Source of the DNA: Pedobacter chinensis
GTDB taxonomy: Bacteria > Bacteroidota > Bacteroidia > Sphingobacteriales > Sphingobacteriaceae
Assembly (NCBI RefSeq): GCF_003339865.1
Contig: NZ_QPKV01000008.1
Location: 124,001-188,000, forward strand
Direction: 5' to 3'
DNA: 64,000 nucleotides
Each line of letters opens with the position of its first letter. Position 1 is the first letter of the stretch. The translations under genes and the position numbers were made by a program. The notes under the pieces were generated by a model, which worked only from the letters and a program-made list of their open reading frames with translations, ran no database searches and had not been told where the DNA came from. Below, piece by piece: positions 6,408-17,659 of the stretch.

Positions 6408-7676
6408 CTACTCTTCCTCATTCTTTTCTATTGCCGCAGGCTGAATGGCCTTTAAATACTTAGCTTCATCAAATTGATTTTCGCTTTTAGCAATTACAAT
6501 GGTAGCTATGCCATTTCCAATTACATTAGTAATGGCCCTGGCTTCGCTCATAAAGCGATCAACACCAATCAATATGGAAATATGCTCAATCGGCATAATT
6601 TTAAGTGCGGTTAATGTAGAAACCAATACAATAAAACCGCTTCCGGTAACACCCGCAGCACCTTTTGAAGTTACCATGAGCACGCCCAAAATAGTAATTT
6701 GCTGGCCAATGGATAAATCGACATGGAAAACCTGACATAGAAATATCACGGCCATCGCCAGGTAAATCGCGGTTCCATCCAGGTTAAAAGAATAACCCGT
6801 GGGAATAACCAGTCCAACCACTGATTTATCACAACCAATGGCTTCCATCTTTTGCATCATACTTGGCAGTGCAGACTCTGATGAAGAGGTTCCCAACACA
6901 ATTAAAATCTCCTGACGGATATATTTTAAGTACTGCCATAAACTAAATTTATAGTATCGGCATATTCCATTCAGAATTACAAAAATAAACAAGAAACAGG
7001 TCAGGTAAACAGAACCCATTAATTTGGCCATCCCGAAAACACTTTGTAATCCATGCGTCCCGATGCTGAAAGCCATTCCGCCGAAGGCTCCAATTGGGGC
7101 TAAACGCATAATTATTTTCATGATTTTAAACAATACTTTTGAGATTTTATCAAAAGCATTTAAAACAGAAGTACCTTCTCCTCCAAGTTTATTAAGCCCA
7201 TACCCGAAAAGAATTGCAAATAATAATATCTGTAAGATATTGCCTTCTGCAAAAGCGGCAATCACATTATGCGGGATGATGTGCAAGAAAAATTCTGCCC
7301 AATTCATATCTTTTGCCTGCTCTGCATAGCCAGCAATTTTTGTTGTATCGCCTGTTTTTGCCACCATCCCTGCTCCGGGTTTAAGCACATTGGCAACCAG
7401 CAATCCAACTGCAATGGCAACAGTACTTACAATTTCGAAATATAATAAAGCCTTTCCGCCAACTCTGCCTACTTTTTTCATATCGCCCATGTGGGCGATG
7501 CCCAAAACAATGGTAAAGAAAATAATGGGCGCAATAAGCATACTGATCAGGTTAATAAAACCCTGACTGATTAATTTGGCCGTTGGCGCAAAACCTGGAA
7601 AATACGCGCCAACTATAATGCCTATAGTAATGGCCACCAAGACCTGGAATGTTAAATTGGAAAGAATTGACTTCAT
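6408..7676 (-). CDS. Dicarboxylate/amino acid:cation symporter (DctA/GltP type)
   Basis: This is an inner-membrane importer of C4-dicarboxylates, aspartate or glutamate with H+ or Na+. The product has 422 residues, the normal length for the DAACS family, with about eight hydrophobic segments. The serine-rich re-entrant motif GTSSSESALP and the conserved IPTGYSFNLDGT and MSEARAITNVIGNG motifs are present. It lies downstream of the cyanophycinase/isoaspartyl peptidase genes on the same strand, which suggests aspartate as cargo. A strong terminator at 7757-7792 separates them, so it probably has its own promoter. Confidence 0.93.
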   Translation of the reverse strand: MKSILSNLTFQVLVAITIGIIVGAYFPGFAPTAKLISQGFINLISMLIAPIIFFTIVLGIAHMGDMKKVGRVGGKALLYFEIVSTVAIAVGLLVANVLKPGAGMVAKTGDTTKIAGYAEQAKDMNWAEFFLHIIPHNVIAAFAEGNILQILLFAILFGYGLNKLGGEGTSVLNAFDKISKVLFKIMKIIMRLAPIGAFGGMAFSIGTHGLQSVFGMAKLMGSVYLTCFLFIFVILNGICRYYKFSLWQYLKYIRQEILIVLGTSSSESALPSMMQKMEAIGCDKSVVGLVIPTGYSFNLDGTAIYLAMAVIFLCQVFHVDLSIGQQITILGVLMVTSKGAAGVTGSGFIVLVSTLTALKIMPIEHISILIGVDRFMSEARAITNVIGNGIATIVIAKSENQFDEAKYLKAIQPAAIEKNEEE

Positions 7677-7807: not shown

Positions 7808-8650
7808 TTATGGCTTAATATCAATCACATCTCCGGCAGTAAAAATTCCGAATTCAGCCTGATTGAATTTCAATAAACCTTTATCTGTTTTCTTAAGTTC
7901 TTTTGGATTGGCCATACGAATAACCTGACTATCACCTGCTACAGTTGCTTTGTTGCCATGAACAATAATAGCAGTACTCTCATCAATCCCAACACAAACC
8001 AAATCAGGATGGGCCGCCAAAGCAGAAATCAATCTGTTATAGCGGTTACGTTTTAAAAAATGTTGATCGATAATGGTGTTTTCCAGCAGCCCCATGCCTG
8101 GAGAAAAATCCACGTTTTTATCCCATAGTTTATTAAAAGTCTCTGTGTAAGCGGTATCGAGCAACTGCTTTCCGGTAATCATATATTTACTCATTACTGC
8201 TGCACCAGCGCTTGTTCCGGCGATGGTTGAACCATTTTGATAAGCTTTATGGATTGCCGCATAAACCGGTGTATTTAACACCACTTTCATAAAACGGCTT
8301 TGATCACCGCCCAAAATGTAAATCAATTTTGCACCAGCTAAAGAATCAATCCATTTTTTATCATTTACATCATGTTTGGCAAAATTGAAATTTCTGATCG
8401 TTCTGTTATCCAGCTTTTTCAATTGAGCAGAAATACTTTTAAAACCAGAATCGGGAATCTCACTGGCCATTGGTAAAATGATAATATAGTCATTGGCTTT
8501 CAAAGCAGCAGTATTCAGCATTTCTTTCATTAAGGCATCAGAACGATTTCCTCCGCCAATAATAAACAAATTGCCCTTTGCAGCTTTACTTTGTGCATTT
8601 AACATCAAAGCTATTCCAAGAAAAATGGTTAGCAGAAATAGTTTTTTCAT
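7808..8650 (-). CDS. Exported cyanophycinase-family peptidase (S51)
   Basis: This S51 serine peptidase (280 residues) has a Sec signal (MKKLFLLTIFLGIALMLNAQ). Cyanophycinases cleave the cyanophycin backbone (multi-arginyl poly-aspartate) to beta-Asp-Arg dipeptides. Visible motifs are LFIIGGG at residue 28, LGGDQ at 113-117, and the nucleophile elbow AGTSAGA with Ser147. The length fits cyanophycinase better than peptidase E, which has about 230 residues. It is the last gene after a second S51 protein and an isoaspartyl peptidase. Activity on cyanophycin is inferred from family and neighbours; another beta-aspartyl peptide is possible. Confidence 0.85.
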   Translation of the reverse strand: MKKLFLLTIFLGIALMLNAQSKAAKGNLFIIGGGNRSDALMKEMLNTAALKANDYIIILPMASEIPDSGFKSISAQLKKLDNRTIRNFNFAKHDVNDKKWIDSLAGAKLIYILGGDQSRFMKVVLNTPVYAAIHKAYQNGSTIAGTSAGAAVMSKYMITGKQLLDTAYTETFNKLWDKNVDFSPGMGLLENTIIDQHFLKRNRYNRLISALAAHPDLVCVGIDESTAIIVHGNKATVAGDSQVIRMANPKELKKTDKGLLKFNQAEFGIFTAGDVIDIKP

Positions 8651-8735: not shown

Positions 8736-9761
8736 TTATTTATAAATGCTCACTTCAATTTTACCATCAGCCGTAATTGCGCCTCTATACATGCCTTCAG
8801 TATTAAAAGGCATAGCTATATTACCTTTCTTATCCAGAGCGATTAAGCCGCCATCACCGCCCATTTTACCTACTTTTTCCAATGCAATTTTTGAGGCTTC
8901 GTTAACCGATAATCCTTTATACTCCATTAAATCGGAAATGGTTTTTGCCACCACATTACGAATATAAAATTCGCCCCAACCTGTACAGGAAATAGCAGCT
9001 GTTTCATTATTGCAGTAGGTTCCGGCACCAATAATCGGTGCATCGCCCACACGGCCATATTTTTTATTTGTCATTCCACCGGTTGAAGTTCCCGCAGCCA
9101 GGTTACCTGCCTTATCTAATGCCACACACCCTACTGTACCAAATTTGTAATCGTGGTTTTTACTTCCCAATAACTCTGATTTTTTACTTCCGTGATCGAG
9201 AACAGCCCTGGTAGAATCTTCCTTAATGGCATTCAGTAAACCATCCCAACGCTCTTTAGTCCAGAAATATTTTGGATCTACAATTTCCAAACCTACTTCT
9301 TTGGCGAACTGATCTGCACCCGCGCCAACCATCATCACATGTTCAGATTTTTCCATTACTGCTCTTGCGGCTGAAATTGGATTTTTGATCGTAGTTACTC
9401 CGGCAACAGATCCTGCCATTAAAGTTTTTCCATCCATAATGGCGGCGTCCAGTTCGTTTCTACCATCATGCGTAAAAACAGCACCCTTACCCGCATTAAA
9501 ATGAGGGTCGTTTTCCAAAACGTGAATGGTTGCCTCAACAGCATCAAGACTTGATTTACCGGCTTTAATTTCTGCATAACCTGCGTTCAACGCTTTTGTT
9601 AATGCAGCAATGTATGCGGCTTCCTTTTCAGGAGTCATATTTTTCTTCAGAATGGTACCCGCACCGCCGTGAATAACCATTACATATTTTTTCTGTTGCG
9701 CAGAAACGTTTAATGCCAGTACTGAAAGAAACAGCACTGCAAATAATCTTAATGATTTCAT
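8736..9761 (-). CDS. Exported isoaspartyl peptidase / L-asparaginase (Ntn hydrolase, T2)
   Basis: Plant-type asparaginases of this family self-cleave and hydrolyse beta-aspartyl dipeptides such as beta-Asp-Arg, the product of cyanophycinase. The 341-residue product has a signal peptide ending NVSAQ, the opening motif VIHGGAGTI, the autocleavage site GTVG with nucleophile Thr209, and the substrate-binding stretch TSTGGMTNKKYGRVGDAPI. Export places it in the periplasm. It lies 6 bases after the upstream S51 gene and 85 bases before the next one, so the three are likely co-transcribed. Confidence 0.92.
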   Translation of the reverse strand: MKSLRLFAVLFLSVLALNVSAQQKKYVMVIHGGAGTILKKNMTPEKEAAYIAALTKALNAGYAEIKAGKSSLDAVEATIHVLENDPHFNAGKGAVFTHDGRNELDAAIMDGKTLMAGSVAGVTTIKNPISAARAVMEKSEHVMMVGAGADQFAKEVGLEIVDPKYFWTKERWDGLLNAIKEDSTRAVLDHGSKKSELLGSKNHDYKFGTVGCVALDKAGNLAAGTSTGGMTNKKYGRVGDAPIIGAGTYCNNETAAISCTGWGEFYIRNVVAKTISDLMEYKGLSVNEASKIALEKVGKMGGDGGLIALDKKGNIAMPFNTEGMYRGAITADGKIEVSIYK

Positions 9762-9767
9762 ATTCTT

Positions 9768-10865
9768 TTATTGATCTTTTTTATTTAACACTCCATTATC
9801 AATCCACCACCAATACCATTTTCCACCGGTAGCTTCACTGGCCTTAAAGTTAGCAACATTAAAGTTTCCACCACCATTTACCGATGCAGGAATTTCGTAA
9901 ACTGAAACTGCTTTTTCGCCATTGTTCCAGATTGTTTTTTTATAGGGCTCCATTTGCTCTGGCTGTTTACCTGCATCAGAAATAATGAAATAGGCATAAC
10001 TGTATGGTCTTGTGACAGCGTAATCACCAAAAACCTGTGCCTTTCCATCGTTGTCAATACAAACAGCTGTTCTTTCATCTGCTGCAATACATTTTGCCGG
10101 TACTTTCCAATCTTTGTTGATTCTACCTAGAAACACCACAGATCTTCCTTCCCGATCGCGGGTTAAATAATGCTGATCGGTAATTACATTTTGCAAATAC
10201 GGTGCTTTTAGGAAATCATTGTTGTAAAGTGTAACGTTAGTATCATAAGGATTTGCAAGCGCTTGAGCCGAAGTTAATCCGCCGGTTTCGCCGCTATAAT
10301 AAAAACCACCCAAAATGGCACACCCAGCACTCGTGCCACCAACAGGAGCCTTTTTATCATTTAAAAGATAATTTAAAGCTTGCTCAGTTTTCGTTCCTTT
10401 CCAGTATTTCATGTAATCAGATTGATCACCCCCGGCAATAAAAACCATTTCAGCATTGCGGATAATGTAGGCCACGGTATCATTATTAGCCAATTCTTTA
10501 GTATTGATTAACAAGGTTTCCACAGAGTTCACGCTACCTAACCCATTCACGTAAGGGTTATAGGCATCAGTGCCGGTAGCGCGTAAAATCACAACATCAC
10601 CACCTCCACTTCTCTCAATCATCCATTTAAACGCGGCATCAACATCGGTACCACCACCCATTAAAACCATACCTCCATTGGTAGCCTTAACAACATTACT
10701 GCTATCACCAACAATTCCTATTGATGCAGGGCGTTTTTTTGCTACCGGAGTTGTTGGGGGAATTGTGCCACCGTCCCCTGTACCCGGGGTTGGATTATCT
10801 GATTTTCCACACCCTAAAGAAGATATGCAAAATGCCATCAATAAAACGATAAGTAATTGTTTCAT
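9768..10865 (-). CDS. Cyanophycinase-like S51 lipoprotein
   Basis: This is a second S51 family member (365 residues), diverged from the one at 7808. It has a lipoprotein signal (SSLGC, Cys19) and a Gly/Pro/Thr-rich linker at about residues 20-42 that would hold the enzyme off the membrane. The motifs are VLMGGG, FIAGGDQSDY at about 143 and the nucleophile elbow GGTSAGC with Ser179. Lipidation next to SusD suggests surface or outer-membrane location, where it could make the first cut in an extracellular polymer. Placement directly behind susD supports one uptake locus. Confidence 0.85.
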   Translation of the reverse strand: MKQLLIVLLMAFCISSLGCGKSDNPTPGTGDGGTIPPTTPVAKKRPASIGIVGDSSNVVKATNGGMVLMGGGTDVDAAFKWMIERSGGGDVVILRATGTDAYNPYVNGLGSVNSVETLLINTKELANNDTVAYIIRNAEMVFIAGGDQSDYMKYWKGTKTEQALNYLLNDKKAPVGGTSAGCAILGGFYYSGETGGLTSAQALANPYDTNVTLYNNDFLKAPYLQNVITDQHYLTRDREGRSVVFLGRINKDWKVPAKCIAADERTAVCIDNDGKAQVFGDYAVTRPYSYAYFIISDAGKQPEQMEPYKKTIWNNGEKAVSVYEIPASVNGGGNFNVANFKASEATGGKWYWWWIDNGVLNKKDQ

Positions 10866-10915: not shown

Positions 10916-12307
10916 CTAGTAACCAGGATTTTGAACTGTATTTTTATTCACTGAAATTTCTGATGCCGGAATTGGAAATGAATATTGAGCTTGTGTTGGT
11001 AACAAAGTTACTGCACCTGATGCATTTACGGCATCAGCAGCTAATCTGGCAACAGGTAATGATCTTCTTTTTAAATCAAAGAAACGGTGCCCCTCAAAAG
11101 CCAATTCCTTATACCTTTCTTCCATTATTGCGGCAATTAAAGTTGCTTTATCTGCAAAAGTTGCATTAACATAAGCATTAATGCGAGCCGCTCGTAAAGC
11201 ATTCAGATCTCCTGCAGCATCACCGGTAGATTCTGCTCTGGCTTCTGCTCTAATTAAATACATTTCTCCGGTACGAAATAATTTAATATCTGTTAAACCC
11301 GGAGCGGTTGAGGTACCGCCAATGTATTTATTAACCAAATACTGCGATTTCGGAGCAACGCGAGTGGCATCATATTTAATATAAGCTGGAAAACGAATAT
11401 CATTTATCTGATCAAAAGATGCAATTAATTTAAAGGCAGGAGCATAAAGTACAATACCTCCAGTTTGACGATAATAAAAATCTCCCAATCTGGAGTCGGT
11501 TGTACCTACACGTTTAGCTTTCCAAATTACTTCGCTGTCATTAGCATCAGTCCACAAACCTGGGAACTGTGCTTTAGTAGCCAAAGGAAAAGCATCTATA
11601 GCTTCTGTAGAGTAAGTAATGGCTTCTCCCCAATTTTTCTCATACAATGCAACACGCGCCTGAATAGCTGAAACACCAGCTTTGGTAATACGTGTTTTAT
11701 CGGTAAAGGTTGTTGGGATTAACGGTTTTGCAGCTACTAAATCGACCTTTACATTCGCAATAACCACTTCGAAATTATCTCTTGATGGGTAACTAATTTT
11801 AGATTCATGCATATATGGCACTCCCAAAGCACCAGTTTGATACGATGCAGCATAATTGCGTAAAAGCTCGAAATGAAAATAGGCACGCAAAGCTAATAAT
11901 TCACCACGGTAACGGGCACCCAAGGTAACATCTGCGCCTGTTAAAGTTAACGCATCTAAACCTGCGATGGTTCTGTTTATGCGATCAATAGCAACATAAA
12001 AGGTTCCATATTGTGAAGTTACCGAGCCACTTCCAGCTGTATATAACCATCTAAAAGCATCACTGTTTCCAACCGTATTTTCTGTAGGAAACGTGGCTTC
12101 ATCAGAAACTGTCGACACAACGCCGATAGTTCCACCATCCAGCAGCGCATAAACACCCAAAATGCCTAAATTTATGTCGCTTATATTCCTATATGCTTTA
12201 TCTGGCGAAATTGTATCCGTTGGCACCAAATCTAACTTTGTACAAGATGCGGTAATAAACAATAACGAGAATATAAGTATGTATTTTTGATATATTTTAT
12301 TAATCAT
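10916..12307 (-). CDS. RagB/SusD-family outer-membrane lipoprotein
   Basis: SusD-type proteins form the lid of a SusC channel at the cell surface and bind the ligand. The 463-residue product has a lipoprotein signal with FITASCTK, the N-terminal SusD region with RINRTIAGLDAL, the RAYFHFELLRNYA helix typical of the family, and the C-terminal EERYKELAFEGHRFFDLKR motif. It follows the SusC gene by 11 bases. The genes behind it suggest that the ligand is cyanophycin or a beta-aspartyl peptide. Confidence 0.94.
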   Translation of the reverse strand: MINKIYQKYILIFSLLFITASCTKLDLVPTDTISPDKAYRNISDINLGILGVYALLDGGTIGVVSTVSDEATFPTENTVGNSDAFRWLYTAGSGSVTSQYGTFYVAIDRINRTIAGLDALTLTGADVTLGARYRGELLALRAYFHFELLRNYAASYQTGALGVPYMHESKISYPSRDNFEVVIANVKVDLVAAKPLIPTTFTDKTRITKAGVSAIQARVALYEKNWGEAITYSTEAIDAFPLATKAQFPGLWTDANDSEVIWKAKRVGTTDSRLGDFYYRQTGGIVLYAPAFKLIASFDQINDIRFPAYIKYDATRVAPKSQYLVNKYIGGTSTAPGLTDIKLFRTGEMYLIRAEARAESTGDAAGDLNALRAARINAYVNATFADKATLIAAIMEERYKELAFEGHRFFDLKRRSLPVARLAADAVNASGAVTLLPTQAQYSFPIPASEISVNKNTVQNPGY

Positions 12308-12318
12308 TGCTGTAATTA

Positions 12319-15300
12319 TTAAAAGTTAACATTTAAACCAGCGGTATAAGTTCTGGTGTTTGGATATTGAAAACGACCATAAACGGCGTTATTTTCTGGA
12401 TCTAATCCTCTCCATTTCGTCCAGGTAAATAAATTTTGCCCTTGAACAAAGATTTTTACTCCCTTAATGATCCGCGTTTTTTCCAAGATGGTTTTTGGAA
12501 TAGAATAACCAATAGTCAGGTTTCTCAATCTTAAGAAAGATGCATCCTGAATATCTTTTGAAGTAAAGTTTCTTGGAATATCAAACCTTTGAAGAATAGC
12601 ATCATTACCTGTATCGCCAGCAACCTGCCATCTGTTCTCCAACATTCTTACTGTTTGGTTACTGGTTGCATAACGCTGGTTTTCATTGTAGAAATCTTCG
12701 TTGTTCCAACGCATCACATTTGATACAAATGAGAATAATGCAGAAGCCGTAATGCCTTTATAACTTAATGAAGTGTTAAAGCCTCCTGTAAATGTTGGAT
12801 ATAAGCCTCCTGAGTTGGTTGTGCTTTGAGTATTCACATTATAATTTGTGGTAATAGATCCATCAAGATTATAATATTGAGCCTCTCCAGTTTGTGGATT
12901 TACACCTGCCCAATCTGGAGCATAATAAGTTCCGTAAGGTAAACCTACTTTTAAAATACGGGTATCACCGTCAGGATATGAATCCACCAAATCAGTAACA
13001 TGCAGAATTTTATTCTTGTTGTAACCTGCATTAACCCCTAATGTCCAGATAAAATCTTTAGATCTGATCACATCTCCGCTTACCTCAAACTCCACACCTC
13101 TATTTCTCATTATACCAGCACTCAAGTTTAATTCACTAAAACCAGATGTTGCAGATAATGGTTGATTGATAAACATGTTGGTTGTTTTTCTATTATAGTA
13201 ATCAACAGTTACACGCAATCTGTTTTTGAACATTGCTAAATCGAACCCGGTGTTAAATTCCTTTACGTATTCCCAGTCAAATTCAGCATTTCCAGGGGTT
13301 GTTGCTCTTATTGCAGCTACACCACCATAAGAAGTATTCACAGCATAGGTTGGTAAGTATAAGAAATCACCACCAAATGGACTTGCGGTGATACCGTAAC
13401 TACTGCGGATTCTTAAATCAGAAATCAAATCAGATGATTTTAAGAATTCTTCAGCCTTAGCATTCCAATTGGCACCAACCGAATAGAAACCATGCCATTT
13501 GTTTTTCGGCGCTACTCTTGTCGAGCCATCATAACGGTAACTTCCTGTTAAGGTATATTTCTCATCATAAGTGTATCTGGCAACCCCCATGAATGATGCT
13601 AGTGCATTTTTGGTTTTACCGCCCGTTGTAGATGGTAAAAATGTTGCACTGCCGTTTGTTGCCCCTGCTGGTGTCTCCGGTAAACGCCCATCAATACCAT
13701 AAGCGCTAAAGCCGAATGAGTTATAGTTGTTGTAAACATACTCATAGAAAGCTGAAGCTTCAAAATCATGAACTTCATTAAACTTCTTGGCATAAGTTAA
13801 GCCCGTAGTGGAAATGATGTTGAAATTTCTTCTGCTTGCATCGGTTAAACGCCCTTTGCCACCTAAGGTATTGGCCACACTTCTTGATCCATAATAAGAA
13901 TCAGGATTGATAAATACCTGATCTGTTGATTGTCTGTAATCAATACCTGCTCTCGTTGTGATTTTTAATTCAGGCAAAATTTGATATGCAAATGATGTAC
14001 TGATAATAGATTTTAACTGATCTGTTTTATCTGATGAATTTAGTAAACGCTCTAACGCCTGACTTCCCTCTCTTTGATCTAAAATAAAATATGAAGATCT
14101 ATTTCCAGGATGTACCAAAGTTCCATCAGATGCATAGGGTTTTTCGTAGGGCAGAGCATAGTAAACGGCCGACATAGCAGTTCCCACACTTGTAGAACCC
14201 TCTCCTTCGGTAAAGCTAGATTGAGAATATCCTAATGAAAGGTTAACACTTCCGCTAAATTTATCATCCTTAAAATCCAAATTACTTCTTAGTGAGTAAC
14301 GATCTAAGCCGGTACGTTTTGCTACGCCTTCCTGGCTGTAATAATTTAATGAGTTATAGAAACGTAAATTTTCATTACCTCCGCTAATGCTCACTTGTTG
14401 CTCCTGAAATTTACCTCTCTGAAAGAAAATATCTCTCCAGTCGGTATTTATTTGTCTTAAACTATCCAAAATAAAATCAGCACGGGCACGAGTTGCTGCT
14501 GTTCCTGTAGCGTAAGTTGGATTTTTTGGAGAATAAGTCCATCCTGGTCCAATGTTACGACCAAAGCTTGCTCCAATTTCTTCTTCAAACTGCAAACGTT
14601 GTTGTGTGTTCATCATTTCAAAATTTGGCCTGCTTAAATTAGAGAAACCATATTGAGAAGTATAATTCACGGCCAATTTACCTGCTCTACCTTTTTTGGT
14701 TGTCAATACAATCACACCATTCGAACCCCTTGATCCATAAAGCGCTTTTGCTGACGCATCTTTTAAAACCGTTGCCGATTCAATATCTTCAGGATTGATG
14801 GTTTGAAAATAACCTGCTTCAATTGGCACACCATCTAAAACAAAAAGTGGTGCAGAAGAACCATTTATACTACCAATACCACGAATCACAACAGCGGCAC
14901 TTTGCCCGGGTTGCCCTGATGTAGAGATTACACTCATCCCCGGAACACGACCTTGTAGAATCTGATCAACAGTTAAGCCAGGAACATCATTTATTTTATC
15001 AGCAGTTACTAATGAAGTTGCATTAGCCGATTGCGCTTTAGTATAATTGGTATAGCCTGTAACCACCACATCGCTCAAACTCCCTGTGGCTGGGGTTAAT
15101 TTAACTGAACCTAATTGTGCTTTAGCAATTACTTCTTTATCTGCATAACCAATATAAGAAATAACCAATACTGCATTTTCATCCACATTTCTGATCATGA
15201 AATTTCCGTTACCATCTGTTACGTAAATTGCCGATTGGCCTTTAACACGTACTGAAGCACCCGGCATTGGATTTCCGTTTTCATCTACGATTTTACCCGT

Positions 15301-15540
15301 AACATCAATGGCTTTTACGCTTTCACCAATGTTTGCTTTAGGAAATATTAAAATGGTATTTTCTTTAATTTCCCAACCGAAGGGTTGTGATTTTAAAGCT
15401 TGTGTTAACACATCGGCAAGCTCTGCATTTTTTAAATCGATGGTTACCGGTTTAGATTTTTGCTGAACTATATCTGTATCATATAGAAAGAAATAACCCG
15501 TTTGGCGTTTAATTTCTTTTAAAACACGCACTAAAGGCAT
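12319..15540 (-). CDS. SusC/RagA TonB-dependent receptor with STN domain (leader interrupted)
   Basis: The intact frame gives 1073 residues: an STN domain at about 1-65, a carboxypeptidase-D-like beta-sandwich at about 80-155 (GKIVDENGNPMPGASV), a plug with GSINGSSAPLFVLDGVPI and LYGSRGSNGVI, and a C-terminal barrel ending TAGLNVNF. STN domains signal to FecR-type anti-sigma factors, and a FecR/sigma pair lies just upstream. The first ATG of the open frame (15540) falls after the expected signal peptide. The upstream in-frame sequence encodes a normal leader broken by one TAG (see 15541-15630). As it stands the receptor would lack an export signal. Confidence 0.88.
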   Translation of the reverse strand: MPLVRVLKEIKRQTGYFFLYDTDIVQQKSKPVTIDLKNAELADVLTQALKSQPFGWEIKENTILIFPKANIGESVKAIDVTGKIVDENGNPMPGASVRVKGQSAIYVTDGNGNFMIRNVDENAVLVISYIGYADKEVIAKAQLGSVKLTPATGSLSDVVVTGYTNYTKAQSANATSLVTADKINDVPGLTVDQILQGRVPGMSVISTSGQPGQSAAVVIRGIGSINGSSAPLFVLDGVPIEAGYFQTINPEDIESATVLKDASAKALYGSRGSNGVIVLTTKKGRAGKLAVNYTSQYGFSNLSRPNFEMMNTQQRLQFEEEIGASFGRNIGPGWTYSPKNPTYATGTAATRARADFILDSLRQINTDWRDIFFQRGKFQEQQVSISGGNENLRFYNSLNYYSQEGVAKRTGLDRYSLRSNLDFKDDKFSGSVNLSLGYSQSSFTEGEGSTSVGTAMSAVYYALPYEKPYASDGTLVHPGNRSSYFILDQREGSQALERLLNSSDKTDQLKSIISTSFAYQILPELKITTRAGIDYRQSTDQVFINPDSYYGSRSVANTLGGKGRLTDASRRNFNIISTTGLTYAKKFNEVHDFEASAFYEYVYNNYNSFGFSAYGIDGRLPETPAGATNGSATFLPSTTGGKTKNALASFMGVARYTYDEKYTLTGSYRYDGSTRVAPKNKWHGFYSVGANWNAKAEEFLKSSDLISDLRIRSSYGITASPFGGDFLYLPTYAVNTSYGGVAAIRATTPGNAEFDWEYVKEFNTGFDLAMFKNRLRVTVDYYNRKTTNMFINQPLSATSGFSELNLSAGIMRNRGVEFEVSGDVIRSKDFIWTLGVNAGYNKNKILHVTDLVDSYPDGDTRILKVGLPYGTYYAPDWAGVNPQTGEAQYYNLDGSITTNYNVNTQSTTNSGGLYPTFTGGFNTSLSYKGITASALFSFVSNVMRWNNEDFYNENQRYATSNQTVRMLENRWQVAGDTGNDAILQRFDIPRNFTSKDIQDASFLRLRNLTIGYSIPKTILEKTRIIKGVKIFVQGQNLFTWTKWRGLDPENNAVYGRFQYPNTRTYTAGLNVNF

Positions 15541-15630
15541 GTTTTTTTGGCTAATATTTATGCGTTGTGAAAATGCATTGGCACTTACCTAGACGCATAA
15601 AACAGTCATTAAAAAAATAAAAAGTTTCAT
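15541..15630 (-). pseudogene. SusC signal-peptide region broken by an in-frame TAG
   Basis: Read in the susC frame from ATG at 15630, this encodes MKLFIFLMTVLCV, then TAG (15589-15591), then VSANAFSQRINISQKN, running straight into the STN domain. Together it is a textbook Bacteroidetes SusC leader in which the position before VSANA is commonly Gln. A single C-to-T change of CAG would give this stop. Either the gene carries a nonsense mutation, or this is a base-call error. Confidence 0.8.
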
Positions 15631-15800
15631 AGCCCTAATAAATTGTTGGTTTAGATAATTTGCAGTAAAGCGCATTGGTTTATTCGCCGCGGGATGACTA
15701 CTTCGAGTGTAAAAGTTCATACATTCAGTTTGGTTTAAAGTTTAATTGATTAGTTTTTGTGTTCTCTGGTTTTGATGCTATTTCATTATTTTGCCATAGG

Positions 15801-16979
15801 CTATTGATTTTCCGGTAATACTTTTAGCTGACGGTTTTCTTTTAGTTCAAACCTGATGTTTCCTGTTTTCTCCAGCATTTTTAAAACTTCAGATAGTTTA
15901 GATTTGCGGGGAACCATTCCATTATATCTTTTATTAGGGATTGAAGAATAATCAATCTTAATATCATACCATCTTTCCAGCTGGCTAAGGATGATTTTCA
16001 GGTCCGAATCATTAAATTGAAATAGTCCGTTTTTCCAGGCGGTTTCATCGTCAGTGTCAACATCCGTTACTAACCGGATGGCAGAATTTCCAGACAAACC
16101 CGCTACGGCTTGCTCTCCTGGCTTCAAAATCCTGGTTGATTTGAGGTTGCTCACTTTCACACTTCCCTCTAACAAGGTTGTTTTAATGATTTCATCATCC
16201 ATGTAACCATTAATATTGAAATGCGTTCCAAGCACTTCAACATCCTGATTCAGGCTTTTTACATGAAAAGGCATTGCCTTGTTTTTGGCAACTTCAAAAT
16301 AGGCTTCTCCCGTAAGCACAACTGAACGCTGATTACCAACAAATGCTTCAGGATATTTTAAAGATGATGCAGCATTTAACCAGACTTTAGTGCCATCGGG
16401 CAAAATAACCTGATATTGGCCACCTTTTGGCGTTTGAATGGTATTATAAGAAACATTTTTTTTATCAAAATTCTCCCGGTTAAGAACAGTATAAACCAAT
16501 TGACCATCTTTAGTCTTAGTGATTTTGATTCCATCTTTATCACTGATATTGGCAGAAGTTTTTTCATCAAGAACAATCTTTGAGCCATCTGCCAGCGTTA
16601 AAATAGCTTTATCTGTTCCTGGTAAAACATCCAGGTGTTTGTTTACTGTTAAATTTGATGTTTTCGAAATAGAATCGGTTTTTAAGAAAAAGTAAAAACC
16701 ACTACCTATTAAAATCAATATTGCAGCTGCAGAGGCATACCTGTAGAACGAAATCGTTTTTGACTTTTTAAATGAAGCTATTTTTTGTTGAATAGCTTTA
16801 AAGTTTTCCTCTTCCAGCTTTTGAATTTCATCAACATTGCCGGAACTTAAGTCATCTTCAGCTTTACCTAAAAATTTATAGTATTCTTCAACAAAAAGAA
16901 TTTCTTCTGCTGTTGCCTTGCCAAACAAGTAGCGTTCAATAATCTTTTGTATGTCTTTTTTGTAATGAAAGGGATTCAT
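15801..16979 (-). CDS. FecR-family anti-sigma factor
   Basis: This inner-membrane regulator relays the state of a TonB-dependent receptor to an ECF sigma factor. The ATG at 16979 was chosen (392 residues) because the longer frame from 17057 adds an atypical hydrophobic stretch before the conserved MNPFHYKKDIQ start. The cytoplasmic N-terminal helices are residues 1-75, the single membrane span is about 81-99 (YASAAAILILIGSGFYFFL), and the periplasmic FecR domain contains LPDGTKVWLNAASSLKYP. A DUF4974-type C-terminal domain follows. It is 92 bases after the sigma-factor gene and 170 bases before the SusC leader. Confidence 0.92.
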   Translation of the reverse strand: MNPFHYKKDIQKIIERYLFGKATAEEILFVEEYYKFLGKAEDDLSSGNVDEIQKLEEENFKAIQQKIASFKKSKTISFYRYASAAAILILIGSGFYFFLKTDSISKTSNLTVNKHLDVLPGTDKAILTLADGSKIVLDEKTSANISDKDGIKITKTKDGQLVYTVLNRENFDKKNVSYNTIQTPKGGQYQVILPDGTKVWLNAASSLKYPEAFVGNQRSVVLTGEAYFEVAKNKAMPFHVKSLNQDVEVLGTHFNINGYMDDEIIKTTLLEGSVKVSNLKSTRILKPGEQAVAGLSGNSAIRLVTDVDTDDETAWKNGLFQFNDSDLKIILSQLERWYDIKIDYSSIPNKRYNGMVPRKSKLSEVLKMLEKTGNIRFELKENRQLKVLPENQ

Positions 16980-17071
16980 TTTTTCTGGTTTATGATAGTA
17001 TGTACCAGAAAAAGGAAAATATCCCAAAAGAATTTTAAATATTTTACAAATCAGCAAAAAATCTGAAAATA

Positions 17072-17659
17072 TTATCTAAAAAAAGCAGAATAAAAAGCCA
17101 CCGCAACTAAAAACAAATGAGTTAACCGGAATTTTAAAGCATGAGTTGCCGTTGTTAATTGATTTTGAACGGTTTTTTGAGATACATTCAACTGAACTGA
17201 AATTTTAGCGGTTGATAAGCCTTCAAAATAATGCAGCAAAAAGATTTTTCTCCTTTTTTCAGGCAATGCTTTTATAAATAATTCAATTAATCCTTTAACC
17301 TCCCGCTCTAACAATTCCCCATCAGCCTGCAAAGGAGAAATCAACTCGTTTTCGAAAGATTGAGTGAAAAAATTGTTTTTGGGTGTTCTGGCAATGTGTT
17401 TTAAAACCTGAAAGCGAACAGCGGTATGCAGGTAAGCCAATGGGTTTTCTAAATTCAATTCGGCTTTTCTATTCCATAAATCGGTAAAAACATTTTGAAT
17501 CACATCCTGGCATTTTTCTTTTTCAGGCAATCGCTTATAAGCGGCATTGTAAAGATCTAGCCAGTAAAGCTTGTAAATTTTGCTAAATGCAGCCTCATCT
17601 CCTTGCTTTAATAAGTCAAAAAGTGCTTTATCGTTTTCACTATTTCCTGAGGCTTTCAA
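17072..17659 (-). CDS. ECF sigma-70 factor (Bacteroidetes FecI-like)
   Basis: The 195-residue product has a sigma region 2 at about 20-90 (EAAFSKIYKLYWLDLYNAAY, with CQDVIQNVFTDLWN) and a region 4 helix-turn-helix at about 120-175 (LSTAKISVQLNVSQKTVQNQ). It ends with an unusual hydrophobic tail, LFLVAVAFYSAFFR, that could touch the membrane or the anti-sigma factor. With FecR and the STN-bearing SusC it forms a cell-surface signalling trio, presumably switching on the sus-cyanophycinase operon when ligand is bound. Confidence 0.94.
   Translation of the reverse strand: MKASGNSENDKALFDLLKQGDEAAFSKIYKLYWLDLYNAAYKRLPEKEKCQDVIQNVFTDLWNRKAELNLENPLAYLHTAVRFQVLKHIARTPKNNFFTQSFENELISPLQADGELLEREVKGLIELFIKALPEKRRKIFLLHYFEGLSTAKISVQLNVSQKTVQNQLTTATHALKFRLTHLFLVAVAFYSAFFR

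Follow-up and report, generated by a model that had tools for sequence, protein, structure and literature searches.

The locus and its genes

The window (the whole 64,000-nucleotide stretch of Pedobacter chinensis DNA that was analysed) carries a cyanophycin-utilisation locus in which a cyanophycinase, an isoaspartyl peptidase and transport genes are clustered, with synteny in relatives. Its features are these.

6408..7676, minus strand: dicarboxylate/amino-acid symporter of the DctA/GltP family (PF00375; NF002461), syntenic in several relatives
7808..8650, minus strand: cyanophycinase, intact (TIGR02069, 161.9 bits against a cut-off of 126.6)
8736..9761, minus strand: isoaspartyl peptidase of the asparaginase-2 (IaaA) type, intact (PF01112; the beta-aspartyl-peptidase model falls below its cut-off)
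9768..10865, minus strand: peptidase S51 / cyanophycinase-like protein, intact, 365 aa (PF03575), full length in relatives
10916..12307, minus strand: susD partner, intact, 463 aa (PF07980, PF14322), with full-length matches in relatives
12319..15720, minus strand: susC, a SusC/RagA TonB-dependent receptor gene interrupted by TAG (TIGR04056, Pfam, orthologues)
12319..15540, minus strand: the longest ATG-started frame left after the stop, starting within the mature N-terminal region and without a signal peptide
15589..15591, minus strand: in-frame TAG, susC codon 44, CAG (Gln) in 17 of 18 orthologues
15718-15720, minus strand: conserved susC start codon ATG, shared by orthologues
15801..17057, minus strand: FecR-type anti-sigma factor, intact (PF04773, PF16344)
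17072..17659, minus strand: ECF sigma factor, intact (PF08281; TIGR02937 sigma70-ECF above cut-off)

The order sigma factor, FecR, SusC, SusD, S51 peptidase, isoaspartyl peptidase, cyanophycinase and symporter is kept in many Pedobacter, and the SusC-SusD-peptidase core reaches Sphingobacterium, Hymenobacter and other Bacteroidota. The placing of this SusC in a cyanophycin locus, as proposed in a preliminary description made from the letters, is supported by the cluster of cyanophycinase, isoaspartyl peptidase and SusC/SusD genes. The second S51-family protein (9768-10865) is a weak cyanophycinase match, at 58 bits with TIGR02069 and below the cut-off of 126.6, yet it is kept in most relatives' loci. 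The genome also holds a full cyanophycin synthetase (C2:103198-105783; TIGR02068, 1259 bits against 850), and so the organism may both make and scavenge cyanophycin.

Start and extent of susC

Read from 15720 to 12319, and with the TAG counted as a residue, the susC frame gives a 1133-residue SusC/RagA receptor, the product of which scores 746 bits with TIGR04056 (cut-off 368) and contains by Pfam the STN, carboxypeptidase-regulatory (CarbopepD_reg_2) and Plug domains; the adjacent susD (SusD_RagB) completes the picture of a SusC/RagA TonB-linked receptor. All 18 orthologues of the codon alignment open with M[NKE]FY or MNLY, the pattern MNFYT..(30 codons)..MKLF.. is shared by orthologues in the susC frame, and most have AAACCAAACTGAATGT directly 5' of the start ATG. 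Given this common N-terminal extension and the element before it, the susC start is almost certainly ATG 15720, 30 codons upstream of ATG 15630. The latter had been taken as the start of the gene in the preliminary description, and is indeed in frame, but the orthologues begin at ATG 15720. Conservation of AAACCAAACTGAATGT among orthologues is strong (15721-15736, minus strand, in the window) and does not extend farther upstream; no second copy of the exact string CTGAATGTATG is present in 1.9 Mb of this genome, and the element may possibly have a translation-initiation or regulatory role.

The stop codon in the leader

The minus-strand triplet 15591-15589 is TAG and shares the frame of the 1073-codon open reading frame 12319-15540; counted from ATG 15720 it is codon 44 of 1134. 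Within the SusC signal sequence it falls close to where the hydrophobic segment ends, MKLFIFLMTVLCV being followed by the stop and then by VSANAFSQ, and from ATG 15720 onward the susC frame has no other stop until its terminal one. Protein identity to orthologues (91-74%) runs from residue 1 to 1133 and so spans both sides of the TAG, which rules out a chance reading of non-coding sequence and leaves a premature in-frame stop with homology on either flank, as in a recent nonsense pseudogene. Letters, frame and orthologues therefore all agree with the earlier claim of a TAG at 15589-15591 inside the signal peptide of an otherwise undisrupted cyanophycin-locus SusC.

Comparison was made with 145 Pedobacter genomes, one genome per species, in which SusC orthologues were counted at E <= 1e-290. 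An orthologue is present in 54 other genomes and none of these 54 has a stop inside susC, the gene being open at codon 44 in these congeners. Stops flagged near the SusC gene starts of five genomes (G018, G092, G059, G026 and G013) all lie upstream of the start codons, among them the TAA flagged in G092 and G059, and these were set aside. The closest relatives at the locus are Pedobacter species, the nearest being P. agri with a SusC identity of 91%. Of the 18 aligned orthologues, 17 carry CAG at codon 44 and the other carries AAT, and so, judged from the alignment, the stop is accounted for by a single C-to-T transition, CAG to TAG, which makes firm the Gln that had been supposed for this site.

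The remainder of susC shows little or no further decay. In triplet comparisons the window branch (dS 0.49-0.62) has a dN/dS of 0.044-0.060 and the sister branch one of 0.040-0.060, with overlapping bootstrap intervals. A release from constraint lasting beyond a small fraction of the branch would be expected to raise dN/dS, and the lack of relaxation thus points to a stop that is either very recent or, through assembly error, absent from the actual organism. The very recent loss that the preliminary description had suggested is in keeping with this strong constraint. A redundant susC copy taking over was considered and rejected, the genome having no second SusC orthologue and a best paralogue of 34% identity.

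A fresh nonsense allele or a base error

A recent nonsense mutation in susC with loss of export is the best explanation of these observations, with a probability of roughly 80%. The main remaining uncertainty about the stop is sequencing error: the true base could be C and susC intact, the T being an error of sequencing or assembly or a minority allele, or the culture being a mixed one. We consider this a much less probable account, though the only one of the alternatives with appreciable weight. It would suit an isolated substitution in a gene without decay, the strong constraint across the rest of susC being expected also if the gene were wholly functional and one base had been miscalled, and the assembly is a draft (24 contigs, 5.45 Mb).

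In two further genes of the genome a frame that is open elsewhere is broken by one stop due to a single substitution. These count in favour of the nonsense explanation, as examples of the same kind of event in this isolate, and they bear on the question of error as well. An acyltransferase-like gene at C15:509722-510645 (plus strand), which on reading we take to be of the lipid-A acyltransferase type, has an in-frame TAG at 509947 in place of the Ser (TCA, TCG or TCC) of most aligned relatives; its tandem paralogue, which comes next at 510735-511628, is open. A second SusC-family gene at C12:134261 (minus strand), otherwise open over about 1126 codons, has a single TAA at a codon that in most relatives encodes Tyr (TAT or TAC). 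These two isolated single-base stops, against no single-stop case among the SusC matches of two close relatives, would fit base errors in the assembly, but random base errors are rare in a finished draft, it is ordinary for an isolate to carry a few fresh nonsense alleles, and the affected genes may tolerate loss, two belonging to the large SusC family and one to a tandem acyltransferase pair. With so few cases, no excess of fresh stops specific to this genome can be claimed. A dicodon scan for interrupted genes over 1.9 Mb of the genome returned mostly ordinary gene ends and is not a census; it missed the window's own susC stop, the leader scoring as non-coding. Weighed together, the susC stop is probably genuine, a nonsense allele that arose very recently in a single isolate, and events of this kind are ordinary.

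Readthrough, recoding and switching as unlikely readings

It is most improbable that the TAG is read through, by amber suppression or recoding, with SusC made at a reduced and perhaps regulated level. Such readthrough would be in keeping with a susC that is otherwise intact and strongly constrained, and with the second in-frame TAG in the otherwise intact acyltransferase gene of the same genome. Against it, a CUA anticodon is absent from all 47 tRNA genes (found with the Rfam tRNA model and each read by ARAGORN), the genome has an uninterrupted RF1, and TAG is an ordinary terminal stop, ending 175 of the 924 long open reading frames in the 1.9 Mb examined (19%). The amber suppression put forward earlier, and the suppressor tRNA that it would need, thus find no support, and neither does a reassignment of TAG. 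The TAG of susC is shared by no relative, and the replaced residues differ, being Gln and Ser at the two TAG codons and Tyr at the third fresh stop, a TAA. Stops of two kinds at three different residues make recoding unlikely, and the three look like scattered nonsense mutations or base errors. Fainter still is the idea that a partly read-through leader amber codon acts as a translational brake, holding SusC deliberately low for cyanophycin uptake. Phase-like switching, also raised in the preliminary description, is unsupported, the change being a plain substitution inside a coding stretch; the aligned orthologues differ at codon 44 by substitution only, with length unchanged, and the sporadic pattern of the three stops does not fit phase variation either.

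Probable consequences for export and for the locus

That an exported protein is made from another start downstream of the TAG, so that the stop is harmless, can be dismissed almost entirely, for although an in-frame ATG exists at 15540 there is no ATG, GTG or TTG in frame between the stop and that codon, and a start there omits the entire hydrophobic leader possessed by all orthologues. With the stop inside the signal peptide and no leader-restoring start downstream, SusC export should fail in this isolate, as far as can be read from the gene. Under the preferred reading, a recent amber nonsense mutation (CAG to TAG) at codon 44 would have struck a conserved cyanophycin-utilisation locus. Translation from ATG 15720 would stop after 43 residues, inside the signal peptide, and a restart at ATG 15540, the only one nearby and lacking an export signal, would place little or no SusC at the outer membrane. 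The neighbours of susC are intact, as had been stated: the frames of SusD, both S51-family proteins and the isoaspartyl peptidase are open, as are those of the sigma/anti-sigma pair. Growth on external cyanophycin would presumably be lost, and transcriptional polarity on susD and the peptidases is possible. The locus is thus probably impaired in this isolate. Of the earlier proposal that it is silenced at its entry point, loss of SusC export is arguable from the sequence, and silencing of the whole locus would be a further, inferred step.

A real stop would make this isolate a naturally occurring susC-null strain for a conserved cyanophycin locus, and paired with an intact relative it could serve to test the need for SusC in the use of external cyanophycin. 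It is otherwise a routine fresh pseudogene. A caution for annotation is that a shortened susC may be called from 15540, without its signal peptide.

Comparison with known systems

In the literature searched, no paper deals with this SusC or with a stop within its leader. The gene resembles recent nonsense pseudogenes in its one-substitution stop, the absence of other damage, the intact sister species and selection that is not yet relaxed, and is set apart only by the place of the stop, which is the signal peptide encoded by a receptor gene. Clusters for cyanophycin scavenging that combine cyanophycinase and isoaspartyl dipeptidase with transporters have been described before (PMC10206079, citing Ben Hania et al. 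2017). As far as the locus of Ben Hania et al. 2017 is described through PMC10206079, the likeness lies in the clustering of cyanophycinase, isoaspartyl peptidase and transport genes. The Pedobacter locus differs from that locus, so described, in relying for transport on a SusC/SusD pair, accompanied by an ECF-sigma/FecR regulator, and in having a peptidase of the asparaginase-2 (IaaA) type.
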